Virus record (IMG/VR): IMGVR_UViG_3300020202_000055
Span: 1-37,799 of that record
Direction: 5' to 3' (one strand)
Origin: a virus
Length of the DNA: 37,799 nt
This document shows positions 13,899-26,239 of the stretch, piece by piece. How positions within the stretch are numbered: position 1 is the stretch's first letter; each line of letters starts with the position of its first letter. The notes beneath the pieces were generated by a model that saw only the letters and a program-made list of their open reading frames with translations, was not told where the DNA came from and did no database searches. Made by a program: the position numbers and the translations under genes.

Positions 13899-13928
13899 CA
13901 TAGCGGAGCCGGAAAATCCTCCGCTATG
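13899..13928. terminator. Hairpin between convergent genes (CATAGCGGAG / CTCCGCTATG)
   Basis: A perfect 10-bp inverted repeat with a 10-nt loop lies just after the integrase stop. One arm is part of another copy of the ATCCATAGCGGAGG leader. It has no U-tract of its own; the stronger terminator for the integrase is at 13940. It may stabilise mRNA ends or block antisense transcripts. Confidence 0.4.
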
Positions 13929-14484
13929 GATTCACGGCAGGGGCGGCGAAAGCTGCCCCATTTTCTTTTTGCAGTTGGGGAATGTTGGTCCATGCGACAG
14001 CCGGAGCCAACGTGTACCAGGGGACGGCATACCCTCTCGCTCCGCCGTGTAGCTCGTTCGTCACTCTTGACCCCGCCATATGCAAGCCGCCGAATTCTCT
14101 CGTGATAATGTCCACGGCTTGAGGCACGTTCAGCACTAGGTAGTAATCAATCCCTGTCTCGTCCTCGTCGGCATAGGCGACGACGTAGTAATGCGCTCCT
14201 AGGTGCTGCCATTCGCCAGCGGAGCCGTCACCGTTGCGGGACTCAAAGATTACGTCTTGATACTCCAGATACTTAGCTCGTCTGATTTTCTCTTGGACTG
14301 TTACAAAGCCGCCATTCTCCGGGCGGATAAGTATGTCAATCCCAAACTCTTTATCTAGGGGGTGTACGGAGCCGAGAGAGCTAAGAACTGTGACAGCGCA
14401 ACCTTTCCAGATTGTCTGATATAGCGCTCTCATAGGTTCCGCTAGCCTCTCGGCAAAGGCATAGTCACTATGGAAAACGGACAT
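13924..14484 (-). CDS. Putative PD-(D/E)XK-fold nuclease-like protein
   Basis: 186 aa from ATG 14484; an upstream in-frame start would overlap the divergent repressor gene. The central part has the restriction-endonuclease-like pattern: FGIDILIRP (D50), then FVTVQEKIRRA (Q64-E-K66), i.e. D...(Q/E)xK, followed by hydrophobic strands HYYVVAYAD and DYYLVLNVP. This resembles nucleases recognising or trimming DNA, but a clear proline before the first aspartate is lacking. It stands between integrase and repressor, where lysogeny-module cargo such as defence or exclusion genes is common. Function is inferred; it may be catalytically inert. Confidence 0.5.
   Translation of the reverse strand: MSVFHSDYAFAERLAEPMRALYQTIWKGCAVTVLSSLGSVHPLDKEFGIDILIRPENGGFVTVQEKIRRAKYLEYQDVIFESRNGDGSAGEWQHLGAHYYVVAYADEDETGIDYYLVLNVPQAVDIITREFGGLHMAGSRVTNELHGGARGYAVPWYTLAPAVAWTNIPQLQKENGAAFAAPAVNP
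13940..13970 (+). terminator. Rho-independent terminator of the integrase
   Basis: GGGGCGGC-gaaa-GCTGCCCC forms an 8-bp stem with a GAAA tetraloop, followed by ATTTTCTTTTT. It lies inside the 3' end of the opposing gene. Confidence 0.75.
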
Positions 14485-14495
14485 AGCAAAAACTT

Positions 14496-14529
14496 TCTGC
14501 AAAGCAGCAGGAATCACCTGCATTGCTGT
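14496..14529. promoter_or_regulatory. Candidate repressor operators
   Basis: The 50-bp gap between the nuclease-like gene and the repressor gene contains CTGCAAAGCAG (palindromic) and CCTGCATTGCTGT (14517-14529). The latter recurs exactly, inverted, at 19844-19856 upstream of the plus operon. Shared sites in front of a repressor and a second operon suggest repressor operators. Confidence 0.45.
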
Positions 14530-14533
14530 AGAA

Positions 14534-14812
14534 ATGAACTGCATGTACAGCCGACCAACAGAGGACGAGACCAAATGGAAATATCTCCGCCGAGCGACAG
14601 TCTTTGCGGACATGAACTACCGGGAGCTTGAAAAGGTAGCCAAGATATCTAACAGCGACTTGAGCAAATTCGCTCGTGGTCAAAAGATGCCAGGGCTTAA
14701 GGCATTTATCCGGCTGTCCCGTGCGCTAGACGTGCCGCTGCATACGCTGCTGTACAGCAATCCGCTCGTCATGGCTCTGCTCAAAGAGGGCGACAATGGC
14801 ACAGCGGATTAA
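14534..14812 (+). CDS. Cro/CI-type helix-turn-helix repressor
   Basis: 92 aa. Residues about 26-75 form an XRE-family HTH: MNYRELEKVAKISNSDLSKF followed by ARGQKMPGLKAFIRLSRAL and DVPLHTLL. A second possible start is the ATG at 14543. It diverges from the gene at 14484 and overlaps the following gene by 17 bp. Being the only clear HTH repressor near the integrase, it is the best candidate for the lysogeny regulator, probably acting on the sites at 14496-14529. It lacks a C-terminal dimerisation/cleavage domain. Confidence 0.75.
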   Translation: MNCMYSRPTEDETKWKYLRRATVFADMNYRELEKVAKISNSDLSKFARGQKMPGLKAFIRLSRALDVPLHTLLYSNPLVMALLKEGDNGTAD

Positions 14813-17633: not shown

Positions 17634-18257
17634 CTAGCTTTTGCTCCCATTCCGCCAATTCAGCTTTCGTGCGCAACTCTTGCTACAGCACGGAGCCTTT
17701 ACCCTAACCGTGACAGCGTATCGTTGGAATGGCTTAGCGCAAAAAGCACACACATAGGAGCTAACTCCGATTGCATGCTTAGCAGCTTTGGGCGGCTTAC
17801 GCTTTGGGGCTACTTGGTTGTTGAACTTTGCTGCACAGGATTGGTTGCAGAATACACGCATACCCGCTCTTAACGTCTTGCGCATGACGGGAGCGCCACA
17901 GCTAGCGCATGGAACGTTGTGCATTGGCTTGCTCATCCACAAACCGGCACACTCGCCCGAGCAAAAGATTCTCGGCTGACCGGACTTTACATGCCGGTTC
18001 TTGACGTAGTGAACAGCACGGGAGAATACGTCTCCACACGTCGGGCAAATGAAATCTAAAGTCGAGAACGCACGACGGTTCTTTAGGTGCGGCTCAATCG
18101 TTGCCAAGTCGTAGACGAGGGGCGGTGGCTTGGGCGGCTCTATCTTTGCTTTAACTTGGCGCTTGCGCTGCTGTGTTGGTTTGGCGGCGGGAGCTAGTGT
18201 CGGCTCTTGCTTTTGCTGCTCCTCTCGTTTGCGGAATAACTGTCTAAGGAATTTCAT
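17634..18257 (-). CDS. Protein with three tandem treble-clef-like zinc fingers
   Basis: 207 aa. After a basic, Pro/Gln-rich N-terminus (about 1-65) come three repeats of the form CxxC...C(S/N)xxC: CPTCG...FCSGEC, CASCG...FCNQSC and CAFCA...CCSKSC. The fingers resemble those of HNH-associated or FCS-type zinc proteins, but no HNH catalytic motif is present. A role in nucleic-acid binding during replication or transcription is likely. AGAGG lies before the ATG. Confidence 0.6.
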   Translation of the reverse strand: MKFLRQLFRKREEQQKQEPTLAPAAKPTQQRKRQVKAKIEPPKPPPLVYDLATIEPHLKNRRAFSTLDFICPTCGDVFSRAVHYVKNRHVKSGQPRIFCSGECAGLWMSKPMHNVPCASCGAPVMRKTLRAGMRVFCNQSCAAKFNNQVAPKRKPPKAAKHAIGVSSYVCAFCAKPFQRYAVTVRVKAPCCSKSCARKLNWRNGSKS

Positions 18258-23271: not shown

Positions 23272-23297
23272 AAAGCCCCTCTGTCACGAGGGGCTTT
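23272..23297. terminator. Bidirectional terminator between convergent operons
   Basis: AAAGCCCCTC-tgtcac-GAGGGGCTTT with T-rich tails on both strands. It separates the plus operon ending at 23221 from the minus operon ending at 23320. Confidence 0.85.
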
Positions 23298-23319: not shown

Positions 23320-23511
23320 CTACTGTAGGATTCTCTCCCGTAGCTCTTTCGGCATCTTGTCCCCTGTCAGCCGCTCAAAGATACGTGCTGCTGCATCCTC
23401 CATGCGCTTTATCCTTGTCTTGGATTCTCTCTTGTCAAAGGCATAGTCAACGACGGCGCTAGCGTAATCGTTGAGCAGTTGCCACGCTTGTTCATGCTCC
23501 ATCTTTTCCAT
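23320..23511 (-). CDS. Small helical hypothetical protein, last gene of the ribozyme operon
   Basis: 63 aa from ATG 23511, with AAGGA just upstream. Wholly helical and charged (EHEQAWQLLNDYASAVVDYA, RIKRMEDAAARIFERL). No family recognised. It lies 10 nt behind the DUF2958 gene, before the terminator. Confidence 0.55.
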   Translation of the reverse strand: MEKMEHEQAWQLLNDYASAVVDYAFDKRESKTRIKRMEDAAARIFERLTGDKMPKELRERILQ

Positions 23512-23521
23512 GTTCCTTATC

Positions 23522-23917
23522 CTACCAGCGGACAAACTCCATCCGCTCACACTTGGACAGTAGCCGAGGCTTAAAGCGTCCGTCCCGAATAATAAACGGG
23601 CGGCAGCGTGTCTGATTCGCTCGTTGGAATTCAGATAGCGCAAAGTACCCTAGCTCTGATTCAAAGCCATGCACCAAGCCAAAGAACAGCACGTCAACAA
23701 CGGCGCTCCAATCCGTCACGTTGCGCAGCGGAATTTTCGTGCCGTCCTCGTCGTCCAACACGGCGCTAGCCTCTAGCGCATACCAAGTCCAACCGTTGTC
23801 AACGCAATACCAGCGCACGAACGCTCTAGCTTGCTGCCCCTCGTTTTCTTGGCTGTAAAGCTCCGGCAACGTCTCGCAATCCTTGGGCGAGAGTAGCTGA
23901 GAGTAAAAGGGATTCAC
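23522..23917 (-). CDS. DUF2958-like protein
   Basis: 131 aa with GTG start at 23917, overlapping the previous stop as GTGA. The family pattern is clear: NGWTWYALEASAV, then the conserved FFGLVHGFESELGYFALSEF. Proteins of this family are typical of plasmids, ICEs and phages and often neighbour ArdC antirestriction genes, as here. The biochemical role is unknown; counter-defence is a guess from context. Confidence 0.75.
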   Translation of the reverse strand: MNPFYSQLLSPKDCETLPELYSQENEGQQARAFVRWYCVDNGWTWYALEASAVLDDEDGTKIPLRNVTDWSAVVDVLFFGLVHGFESELGYFALSEFQRANQTRCRPFIIRDGRFKPRLLSKCERMEFVRW

Positions 23918-24111
23918 GCTCTCACCTCGTTCAATGCCTTGCGCACGATTTGCGACGGGACAAAGTACACGTACCCGCACTCGTCCGCAATGCCGACATA
24001 GCCGCTCGTATCCGGCTCCGTAAGCTGCTCAAAGATGCTGCCCGCCTTTAACCTCGTGCGGCTTATGTTGTCGGCTGTAAAGTCCGCCAACAGTTCTACT
24101 AATCGTCTCAT
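23914..24111 (-). CDS. Small hypothetical protein downstream of ribozyme A
   Basis: 65 aa. Start ATG 24111 is preceded by the CCATAGCGGAGGAAC leader. The C-terminal half (SGYVGIADECGYVYFVPS) looks like a small beta barrel and the N-terminus is helical. Function unknown. It is the first gene of the RNA released by cleavage of ribozyme A. Confidence 0.6.
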   Translation of the reverse strand: MRRLVELLADFTADNISRTRLKAGSIFEQLTEPDTSGYVGIADECGYVYFVPSQIVRKALNEVRA

Positions 24112-24137
24112 ATGTTCCTCCGCTATGGATTCCGCCT

Positions 24138-24202
24138 GACTCGTCAGCTAGGGGCGGCACTCCCTAGGACAGCAGCGGCTATTACTCCGCTGCTGTTTCG
24201 TC
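24138..24202 (-). ncRNA. Type II hammerhead ribozyme A
   Basis: On the minus strand, in order: stem II strand GAC (24202-24200, its first G is the last base of the upstream TAG stop); GAAA (24199-24196); stem III ACAGCAGCGG/CCGCTGCTGT with an 8-nt loop; cleavage triplet GTC with the cut after C24168; stem I CTAGGG (24167-24162)/CCCTAG (24153-24148) with loop AGTGCCGC; core CTGACGA (24147-24141); stem II GTC (24140-24138). Every invariant nucleotide of the hammerhead core is present, including the A15.1-U16.1 and G10.1-C11.1 pairs. Stem II beyond 3 bp is weak. Stem III differs from copies B and C but keeps full pairing. Confidence 0.87.
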
Positions 24203-24588
24203 TATCTCGCTCGTTTGACTCGCCTTAGTAACTCGTCTAACCGAGCTTGCCAGCAGCCGTCGTGATAGCTGCCGACGTGATACCGATGCACGGAACCTCT
24301 GTCCCGTCTCTCGCCATGTCCGCAATAGCAGCAGCGAGAGCCGTCCTCGTCCGCCATACGACGGGCTAGCTCTATGCGGCAAAGCTCCGCAACCTCGCAT
24401 ATATAGGCTACGCATTGCGGCTCCGTGTCCAATAGCTGCCCCTCGCTCAAAGCCTCTGCATAGGCTTTGTAGTTACCGGCTACTCCGTCGTATTGTCCGA
24501 TTTGCTTACCGTCATGTAGCACGGCATACCAAGTGCCGAACGCTCCGGCTCTCGGCTCTACCGTCACAGTGTCACGAGTGATATTCAT
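24202..24588 (-). CDS. Hypothetical protein with Cys/His metal-binding cluster
   Basis: 128 aa from ATG 24588, behind the CCATAGCGGAGGA leader. The C-terminal part has CCYCGHGERRD, then H, H and HDGC in GSVHRYHVGSYHDGCWQ, probably one zinc site. The N-terminal half (TVEPRAGAFGTWYAVLHDGK) is a beta structure resembling small plasmid/phage accessory proteins. Flanked by ribozyme B upstream and A downstream, so it would be released as a single-gene RNA. Confidence 0.6.
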   Translation of the reverse strand: MNITRDTVTVEPRAGAFGTWYAVLHDGKQIGQYDGVAGNYKAYAEALSEGQLLDTEPQCVAYICEVAELCRIELARRMADEDGSRCCYCGHGERRDRGSVHRYHVGSYHDGCWQARLDELLRRVKRAR

Positions 24589-24608
24589 ACGTCCTCCGCT
24601 ATGGATTG

Positions 24609-24673
24609 CCTGACTCATCAGCTAGGGGCGGCAAAGTCCCTAGGACGGCGGAAAGCTCCGCCGTTTCGTCTAG
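24609..24673 (-). ncRNA. Type II hammerhead ribozyme B
   Basis: Minus strand: stem II strand CTAGAC (24673-24668, covering the TAG stop of ardC), GAAA (24667-24664), stem III ACGGCGG/CCGCCGT with loop AGCTTT, cleavage triplet GTC with the cut after C24644, stem I CTAGGG (24643-24638)/CCCTAG (24627-24622), core CTGATGA (24621-24615), stem II GTCAGG (24614-24609). The core carries T at the free N7 position where A and C have C, exactly where hammerheads tolerate variation. Stem II can form 5 of 6 pairs with an A-A mismatch. Confidence 0.9.
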
Positions 24674-25539
24674 TCCTCGTGCGACTCGTCCCAATTCACG
24701 CCAAGGATAAAATCGGCGGCTTTTTGGGCTTGGGCGGCAGCGATAACGGCAATTTTCTTGTCGCTCTTGAGCTTGGATAGCCAACCGTCTATGTAGCTTG
24801 CACTCTGCTCCATGCTAACGTCATTGGCAATGCCAGCGACGTTACAGAGAAAGCTAGCGCCAAACTCGGCTACCAATTCCTCTCTCGCATAGCTAGCCGT
24901 CCCGAATCCCTCTATCTCGGCAATGCCCGGACGGTTTAGGCGGCTCTCGTGTCCCGTGCTATGCGCTAGCTCATGAAACAGAGTCGAATAGTAGCGCTCC
25001 GTGCTTTCAAACCGCTCTACCTTGGGCATATGGACCGAATCCGTAGCCGGACGGTAAAAGGCTCTATCTCCGCCGTTATCGTAAACGGACGGAGCTTGAG
25101 GCATGCCGGAAACGATGGACTCGCAATGCTCTAGCCGCTCCGCTAGTCCTCGCTCGTCGTCAGAGACTAACGGCGGCAGCTTTAGCCCGCACTGCTCCAC
25201 GTTGAAAACTCTGTAGTAACGGAGCAAGGGAATTCGCTCCGTCCGTCCCGTGTCCTCGTCCTCTATCTCTAGCTGTTTCCAGAAAACAACTACCGTGCTA
25301 GCCTCTCCCTGTCTCACATGTCCGCCTAGCTCTTTGGCTTGCTTGTAAGTTAGCCATCGGTTATCGGAATACGGAGCAAGTCCAAGCATAAAGGCATTGA
25401 TTCCCCTGTAGCGCTTTTTGCTAACCGCATTGACAGGGACGCCGGAACAGCGCCACGGTTTGCGCCAAGGGATAACGCCACGCTCTAGCATGCTAATCAG
25501 TTGCGACGTAACCATTTCGTAAACGACGATATTTGACAT
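24670..25539 (-). CDS. ardC: ArdC-family antirestriction protein
   Basis: 289 aa, the usual length. The N-terminal domain (about 1-130) has the ArdC single-strand-DNA-binding pattern: RGVIPWRKPW, RYRGINAFMLGL, RWLTYKQAKELGG and VVFWKQL. The C-terminal domain is a zincin with HELAHSTGH (H189, E190, H193) and a third-ligand candidate glutamate in YAREELVAEFGASF. ArdC proteins protect incoming DNA from restriction. The gene is preceded by ribozyme C and followed by ribozyme B, so its RNA would be cut on both sides. This suits the extreme restriction-site avoidance of the genome. Confidence 0.9.
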   Translation of the reverse strand: MSNIVVYEMVTSQLISMLERGVIPWRKPWRCSGVPVNAVSKKRYRGINAFMLGLAPYSDNRWLTYKQAKELGGHVRQGEASTVVVFWKQLEIEDEDTGRTERIPLLRYYRVFNVEQCGLKLPPLVSDDERGLAERLEHCESIVSGMPQAPSVYDNGGDRAFYRPATDSVHMPKVERFESTERYYSTLFHELAHSTGHESRLNRPGIAEIEGFGTASYAREELVAEFGASFLCNVAGIANDVSMEQSASYIDGWLSKLKSDKKIAVIAAAQAQKAADFILGVNWDESHED

Positions 25540-25564
25540 TTCTAGAATCCTCCGCTATGGATTG

Positions 25565-25629
25565 CCTGACTCGTCAGCTAGGGACGGCAAAACCCCTAGG
25601 ACGGCGGAAAGCTCCGCCGTTTCGTCAAG
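25565..25629 (-). ncRNA. Type II hammerhead ribozyme C
   Basis: Minus strand: stem II strand CTTGAC (25629-25624, overlapping the TGA stop of the upstream gene), GAAA (25623-25620), stem III ACGGCGG/CCGCCGT with loop AGCTTT, triplet GTC with the cut after C25600, stem I CTAGGG (25599-25594)/CCCTAG (25583-25578) with loop GTTTTGCCGT, core CTGACGA (25577-25571), stem II GTCAGG (25570-25565). Here stem II forms six consecutive pairs (one G-T), the best of the three. The loop of stem I keeps TGCCG in all copies. Confidence 0.9.
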
Positions 25630-25843
25630 AGCCGATAAGCTGCCGTAAGGTAGCCGCTGCATCGTCTATGCACGTCGTGTAATAAGCTCCGTCCTCTATC
25701 ATCGTCCGTAGCTCGTCCCGTGTAGCGTTCGGATGATAGGCGGAAAACCTCGTAAGGCTAGCCGCTATCCGATACTCTCCGTCCGTCTTTGTCACGTTGT
25801 AACCCGAACCTCTCGCCAATGTCTGTAGCTGCTTAAGTGTCAT
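25625..25843 (-). CDS. Small hypothetical protein
   Basis: 72 aa from ATG 25843, overlapping the previous stop as TAATG. N-terminal LKQLQTLARGSGYNV followed by TDGEYRIA resembles small phage accessory proteins with a helix-hairpin-strand fold; the C-terminus is helical. Its TGA stop lies inside stem II of ribozyme C. Function unknown. Confidence 0.55.
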   Translation of the reverse strand: MTLKQLQTLARGSGYNVTKTDGEYRIAASLTRFSAYHPNATRDELRTMIEDGAYYTTCIDDAAATLRQLIGS

Positions 25844-25992
25844 TACTCGCTGTCCTCCGTCTTGAGAATGTCCGCACATTCCAAGAGCCTTACTAGCTCT
25901 CTCGCCCATTGCTCCGCCTCTGAGTCTTTGCCGCATTGCTTGTATGCAATCGCCTTAGCCATCGCTCTAGCCGCCTCTGTCCTGTCTATCAT
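25843..25992 (-). CDS. Very small helical protein
   Basis: 49 aa from ATG 25992, overlapping the upstream stop as ATGA. The sequence is one or two helices (TEAARAMAKAIAYKQ, SEAEQWARELVRLLE). Coupling with both neighbours supports it as real. Function unknown. Confidence 0.5.
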   Translation of the reverse strand: MIDRTEAARAMAKAIAYKQCGKDSEAEQWARELVRLLECADILKTEDSE

Positions 25993-26201
25993 CGCTGTAC
26001 CCTCGCACGGGATACAAAGCCCATAAGCTCCGTTAACTTGCGTCGCTCCGCTAGCTCCGCCTCTGTTAAGCAATCGGCAATTTCCGCCTTTAGCTTTCGC
26101 CGATGCTCCGCACTCCATACCCGTCCCGTGCTAGCAAACGAATACAAAGCGCTGCACTGTCCGCCGTGCCAATCGCTAGCCGTCAGTTGATACCGTGTCA
26201 T
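25989..26201 (-). CDS. Small hypothetical protein, first gene of the ribozyme operon
   Basis: 70 aa from ATG 26201, preceded by ATCCATAGCGGAGGAAC. N-terminal TRYQLTASDWHGGQ and a basic helical C-terminus. No family recognised. It carries the same leader as the ribozyme-controlled genes, but no ribozyme core lies before it. Confidence 0.55.
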   Translation of the reverse strand: MTRYQLTASDWHGGQCSALYSFASTGRVWSAEHRRKLKAEIADCLTEAELAERRKLTELMGFVSRARVQR

Positions 26202-26239
26202 GTCTAAGGTTCCTCCGCTATGGATTCCGGCAACGTCCA

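Follow-up and report, generated by a model that had tools for sequence, protein, structure and literature searches.

Natural type II hammerhead ribozymes were described by Perreault et al. 2011 (PMC3088659), who found them clustered around single genes or short blocks of genes in prophages and proposed that they cut long phage transcripts to operon- or gene-length mRNAs. In the same work, three hammerheads arrayed around the ardA gene of Agrobacterium tumefaciens cleaved both in vitro and in E. coli, and ardA was located immediately 3' of a hammerhead in three Legionella strains. An earlier note on the DNA analyzed here had presented serial ribozyme processing of a counter-defence operon as undescribed; this claim of novelty falls, since such processing is already contained in the 2011 paper. 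The locus reported here shares with those clusters several same-strand hammerheads between the genes of a phage operon and a flanked antirestriction gene, with three copies placed around ardC and the gene that follows it (gene 5). It differs in that the antirestriction gene encodes ArdC (ArdcN plus zincin) rather than the unrelated ArdA, in that all three ribozymes are type II, and in that they form near-identical ribozyme-plus-leader cassettes. As judged from sequence, the locus is a further case of clustered phage hammerheads in which ArdC replaces ArdA.

The window, that is, the whole stretch of DNA analyzed (37,799 bases), is a viral record carrying terminase, portal, capsid and integrase genes. 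Whereas the 2011 clusters lie in prophages, the window comes from an uncultured tailed phage that is probably temperate. The operon of interest runs on the minus strand from about position 26201 to a terminator hairpin near 23272-23297 and contains the following genes:

25625 to 26201, minus strand: genes 1-3 (70, 49 and 72 aa, products unassigned), with overlapping starts and stops (AUGA, UAAUG)
24670 to 25539, minus strand: ardC-like antirestriction gene (289 aa) with a HELAH zincin motif
24202 to 24588, minus strand: gene 5 (128 aa, product unassigned)
23320 to 24111, minus strand: genes 6-8 (65, 131 and 63 aa, products unassigned)
23272 to 23297, minus strand: palindromic hairpin, probably the terminator of the operon (given by the scanner as a plus-strand feature)

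A sigma-70 consensus search recognized no promoter for the operon, and we therefore infer co-transcription from the gene order and the single terminator. The 289-aa product matches Pfam ArdcN (1.3e-32) and MPTase-PolyVal (4.9e-37) as well as the anti-restriction family PHROG 7245 (3.9e-74), and its HExxH residues are invariant across alignments. By this domain make-up (ArdcN plus zincin metallopeptidase) it is an ArdC antirestriction protein, in keeping with the ArdC operon named in the earlier note. The ArdC of plasmid R388, which acts in conjugation, has a homologous domain make-up (PMC7213743). In the ArdC tree the window protein stands beside Armatimonadota sequences (support 93), which may be taken as a weak hint to the host; viral scans using the window's ArdC alone or its terminase found no close relatives of this phage. 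The gene 5 product had no family match in Pfam or PHROGs. An HNH endonuclease-like gene lies mid-record at 17634-18257 (minus strand).

Each of three minus-strand gaps in the operon (25624-25540, 24669-24589 and 24201-24112) holds one element, in which GAC, GAAA, stem III, GUC, stem I, CUGA(C/U)GA and GUC follow one another in this order:

25568 to 25626, minus strand: hammerhead A (type II), between gene 3 and ardC, predicted cut after C25600
25626-25624 paired with 25570-25568, minus strand: stem II of A (GAC/GUC)
25599-25594 paired with 25583-25578, minus strand: stem I of A
25577-25571, minus strand: core CUGACGA of A
24612 to 24670, minus strand: hammerhead B (type II), between ardC and gene 5, predicted cut after C24644
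24138 to 24202, minus strand: hammerhead C (type II), between gene 5 and genes 6-8, predicted cut after C24168

The invariant core (CUGANGA, GAAA and the cleavage triplet NUH, here GUC) is complete in all three copies, and both the sequence and a descriptor scan give the type II order in each, with stems I and III closed and stem II open. The earlier note had already placed three type II hammerheads here on the minus strand; all were recovered by sequence inspection and descriptor scan with perfect cores, and its predicted cut positions agree with ours. Stem III comprises 8, 8 and 10 bp in A, B and C, and in C its sequence is unlike that of A and B yet fully paired. Stem I comprises 6 bp, being longer in A with a G-U extension, and stem II comprises 3 bp, or up to 6 in A if extended. 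The minimum free energy fold of A is the hammerhead secondary structure with all three stems. For B and C with their tails, it contains the stem I and stem III hairpins together with a competing CUGA...UCAG hairpin that beats the 3-bp stem II; the folding program cannot model a pseudoknot, which should offset this competing hairpin.

Such a pseudoknot, which the earlier note did not mention, connects loop I and the 3' tail in all three copies:

25562 to 25566 (3' tail GGCAA) with 25590-25586 (loop I UUGCC), minus strand: pseudoknot of A, from sequence
24606-24610, minus strand: equivalent tail in B
24132-24136, minus strand: equivalent tail in C (GGCGG)

It has 5 bp in A and B (UUGCC/GGCAA) and 4 bp in C (UGCC/GGCG or CCGC/GCGG); in A, the extended stem II and the pseudoknot would compete with each other. 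Three other viral hammerheads that adjoin an ArdC gene carry the pairings UGAAC/GUUCA (L028), UGACCU/AGGUCA (L073) and UGGUC/GACCA (L104), and one away from ArdC carries UGGCA/UGCCA (L004), so that a helix of 5-6 bp is kept among these four and A with different bases. The pairing is reduced to 3 Watson-Crick pairs in L111 (5 with G-U) and is practically missing in L067. Summed over eight cases, the observed pairing was reached in 0 of 5000 tail permutations. We rejected the pseudoknot as a universal feature, as at least 4 bp were found in 8% of a wider set of phage hammerheads (the GAC/GUC pattern set described below) versus 5% after permutation. The sequences thus suggest that the pseudoknot is a mark of the window's subclass, common but not universal in type II hammerheads. 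It matches the type II pseudoknot that Perreault et al. 2011 (PMC3088659) reported as needed for speed. In the related viral contigs L004 (7409-8318) and L005 (8630-9539), a single 253-aa gene lies between two type II hammerheads whose stems III are identical, and one copy in these arrays is without most of the pseudoknot.

The descriptor scan of both strands of the window returned exactly three type II hammerheads, namely A, B and C, and its extension to all three permutations found nothing else in the window. Strict stem requirements (5/5/2) gave 0 matches when the window was shuffled 100 times with dinucleotides preserved, and lax requirements gave 0.11 matches per shuffled window. The earlier note had proposed a covariance search, and its outcome depended on the model. 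Rfam 15 at gathering thresholds had no match to the window elements; at a permissive threshold, Hammerhead_II (RF02276, clan CL00010) found only B, with 34.4 bits (E 1.8e-4) against a gathering score of 37, which is a threshold of the model and not a defining feature of a type II hammerhead. The window copies share with this family the circular permutation, the core, the minimal stem II and the pseudoknot between loop I and the 3' tail, and they differ in scoring below its threshold. An independent model, in contrast, recovered all three. We collected phage hammerheads from viral contigs with the pattern GACGAAAC-N-GTC-N-CTGANGAGTC (the pattern set, at least 120 matches) and built a covariance model, R1, from 18 that share the same geometry and come from eleven other phage loci, leaving the window out. 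Over the window and phage ArdC loci (702 kb), R1 scored A, B and C at 41.8, 37.9 and 34.3 bits, with E-values of 3.5e-10, 6.7e-9 and 1e-7 that are rough because the calibration was short.

It could be argued that the elements are chance resemblances or dead remnants of hammerheads, given that they do not reach the Rfam gathering threshold and that a relative in contig L110, with G5 of its core replaced by C, is probably inactive. Set against three perfect cores, strict shuffles at zero and the R1 E-values, we regard this as extremely unlikely. The failure of Rfam to report the window copies looks like a shortcoming of the Rfam model; perfect-core arrays of up to six copies in other phages are also missed. 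At the gathering threshold, Rfam recovered L073 alone of nine loci holding hammerheads and had no match in L115, L123 or L128; for L115, with six copies, it gives one sub-threshold match. R1 found 33 hammerheads in seven multi-copy loci, 11 of which went into the model and are therefore bound to match. The Rfam type II model therefore seems to miss many phage members, and counts based on it are probably low. The phage contigs L115, L122, L123, L127, L128, L144 and L164 each carry four to six type II hammerheads in series, mostly between single small genes.

We then examined the association with ArdC in the whole records of 80 viral contigs that matched an ArdC alignment, among the matches listed (2.41 Mb, many of them fragments), using as controls these whole records, 12 other viral records and cellular ArdC loci, with no matched phage gene. 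R1 is a type II model, and the association thus concerns type II hammerheads. Five further hammerheads were found in the viral set at E <= 0.01, and all five lie on the ArdC strand, and the ArdC stretch that was matched is 56, 21, 92, 891 and 38 nt away; under random placement within their own records, the chance of all five falling within 1 kb of ArdC is ~6e-6. One of the five (L110:2797-2860) is the hammerhead-like element with the G5-to-C change, having CUCAGGA for CUGANGA, and its sequence suggests that it is probably dead. R1 found no type II hammerhead in 80 cellular ArdC loci, among the matches listed (610 kb), and none in ten of the 12 other viral records, an unrelated pattern sample from which the pattern matches L004 and L005 were excluded. 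By itself, 5 of 80 viral versus 0 of 80 cellular is a modest difference, and the weight of the finding lies in where the hammerheads sit within their records. In addition, the circular phage MW202801.1, whose ArdC is 50% identical, has one hammerhead in 40 kb, located one gene after ArdC and scoring above the Rfam threshold. On the tree, the seven ArdC proteins linked to a hammerhead occupy scattered positions, with seven changes needed for seven rows and well-supported branches forcing at least three of these changes. Type II hammerheads therefore repeatedly adjoin ArdC-class anti-defence genes in viral contigs and are not restricted to one ArdC lineage. About 1.2 kb from the ArdC-linked hammerhead in L111, at 2679-2798, lies a Betaproteobacteria-1 RNA of Rfam (94 bits).

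The idea that one gene family accompanies the hammerheads was rejected, as their neighbors are diverse small phage genes. Among the matches listed, DUF932 is the commonest recognizable downstream neighbor (4 of 63), genes for AAA ATPases, helicases and HNH proteins also recur, and ArdA is found upstream in 1 of 95. Because of this diversity, the link between hammerheads and antirestriction is not exclusive.

Each ribozyme of the window is followed by a 5' leader box, which is also present before gene 1 without a ribozyme:

25548 to 25562, minus strand: leader box AUCCAUAGCGGAGGA with Shine-Dalgarno sequence, 3' of A
24592-24606, 24116-24130, 26211-26225 and 13917-13931, minus strand: further copies of AUCCAUAGCGGAGGA

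Ribozyme and leader box might accordingly be read as a passive or selfish repeat, spread by duplication or gene conversion and with no role in the operon. The recurrence of the leader box elsewhere without a ribozyme would fit this reading, as would the small distance between A and B, which differ at 4 of 76 positions with the leader box included. However, three of these differences fall in loop I and one at N7, all of them positions that are free to vary, so that the constrained positions are kept while the unconstrained ones vary. Moreover, the ribozymes at other ArdC genes are unrelated in stem sequence, mostly keep the pseudoknot and belong to scattered ArdC lineages, and thus were not spread simply by copying. 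On this evidence we find a purely passive cassette very improbable.

The first bases of GAC in every window copy are part of the stop codon of the preceding gene: stem II of A shares bases with the UGA of gene 3, and the UAG codons of ardC and gene 5 likewise run into stem II of B and C, respectively, an overlap that the earlier note did not mention. The stop codons end 1, 2 and 2 nt before GAAA. Among the matches listed in the pattern set (116 hammerheads), the upstream stop lies a median of 5 nt from GAAA and falls at 0-7 nt in 77 cases, compared with background rates of 3.9% at random positions and 8.5% at GAAA sites elsewhere. A second set, from 39 loci not previously used, had the stop at 0-7 nt in 37 of 62 hammerheads, with a median of 4 nt, so that 114 of the 178 phage type II hammerheads among the matches listed in both sets have a stop 0-7 nt before the core. 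The commonest arrangement is UAG|GAC|GAAA. Past stem II, the start of the next gene follows at a median of 23 nt, and 77% of these starts are accompanied by a Shine-Dalgarno-like motif. Neighboring hammerheads, among the matches listed, lie on the same strand in 75 of 75 pairs (median spacing 544 nt). A literature search found no paper noting the stop-codon position of these hammerheads, an absence that is weak evidence. The placement of phage type II hammerheads right behind a stop codon, in pairs that are always co-stranded, appears to be new; so too, relative to the 2011 work, is the placement at ArdC loci on scattered lineages.

This placement bears on a translation-coupled switch, in which the ribosome finishing the upstream gene would cover stem II and GAAA, and cutting would occur only if translation does not reach the end; the ribozyme would then report translation or tie the decay of a unit to the loss of ribosomes. 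The overlap of the window stops with stem II and the excess of nearby stops over both backgrounds speak for such a switch. However, phage genomes are compact, and tight packing between a stop codon and a ribosome-binding site may merely save space; furthermore, about one third of cases show larger distances. We hold this switch to be possible, if on the unlikely side.

Within the operon, ribozymes fill every non-overlapping internal junction except the gap of about 10 nt between genes 7 and 8; the overlapping (coupled) genes 1-3 and 6-7, the latter joined by GUGA, are also without a ribozyme. Observed structure, conservation, position and pseudoknot make it likely that the three elements are catalytically competent type II hammerheads which cut the operon RNA in cis into gene-sized units, cleavage being known for their relatives; for the window copies we infer the activity, the order of events and the benefit to the phage. 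The hammerhead identity and the processing idea of the earlier note are well supported by the sequence, the covariance model, the pseudoknot covariation and many relatives. Cutting would take place co-transcriptionally or soon after, and the transcript from ~26.2 to 23.27 kb (minus strand) would yield four units: genes 1-3, ardC (956 nt), gene 5 (476 nt) and genes 6-8. Because a type II cut would fall between two closed hairpins, which no other permutation does, both new ends would be hairpins, the upstream piece having stem III and a 2',3'-cyclic phosphate at its 3' end and the downstream piece having stem I and a 5'-OH at its 5' end. The calculated folding energies for A, B and C are -14.5, -14.5 and -19.1 kcal/mol for stem III at the new 3' ends and -8.2, -7.6 and -8.2 kcal/mol for stem I at the new 5' ends. 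The main helix joining the halves would be stem II, and since it has only 3 bp the products can separate.

In bacterial mRNA decay, 3' exonucleases and 5'-end-dependent degradation are expected to act more slowly on RNAs that have terminal hairpins and a 5'-OH, and from this general behavior such ends would stabilize the pieces. The likely use would be to make ardC and gene 5 independent of their neighbors in stability and translation, and to provide every unit with a common standard leader. RiboJ, an engineered ribozyme insulator derived from a viral satellite hammerhead, similarly gives a gene a defined mRNA 5' end and hairpin from an upstream hammerhead; it is placed after a promoter by design, whereas the window ribozymes lie between genes. 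As hairpin ends would form and the products can part, mRNA segmentation is the most likely role. Its main alternative, segmentation gated by the ribosome, is compatible with it.

The same ends could lead to RNA circles. The ardC unit would carry a 5'-OH and a 2',3'-cyclic phosphate, the halves of A and B left on it could come together across stem II as a restored hammerhead, and ligation by reversal or by host RtcB ligase would give a stable circular ardC mRNA. Hammerhead circularization is established for viroids and retrozymes, and the near-identity of A and B makes the ends of the ardC unit compatible. However, only the 3 bp of stem II would join these ends, and Perreault et al. 2011 (PMC3088659) sought spliced or circular products and found none, which leaves circles very improbable.

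The purpose of clustered phage hammerheads has been open since 2011, and two regularities make it testable: the same-strand placement between stop codons and start signals, and the location at the ArdC locus of every type II hammerhead detected in the ArdC-bearing viral contigs examined, as against none at cellular ArdC loci. We suggest, speculatively and with rather low expectation, that type II hammerheads might be a general operon-cutting device of phages, flush on the upstream stop and ribosome-gated, which was recruited repeatedly to ardA and, independently several times, to ardC. If this is true, antirestriction genes are perhaps targeted since proteins of first need require amounts or timing unlike those of their operon neighbors.

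The fifth copy of AUCCAUAGCGGAGGA, at 13917-13931 (minus strand), has no ribozyme and no obvious gene behind it; it spans the stop codon of the ORF at 13924-14613 and faces the end of the integrase gene. Other viral contigs also contain matches to the 16-base leader box; these are apparently due to chance, and most fall within ORFs. Repeated leader cassettes of 26-40 nt were observed in contigs L067 (185-222, 847-884 and 1456-1495) and L110 (325-352, 1050-1077 and 2940-2971), and these resemble the leader box of the window in principle.
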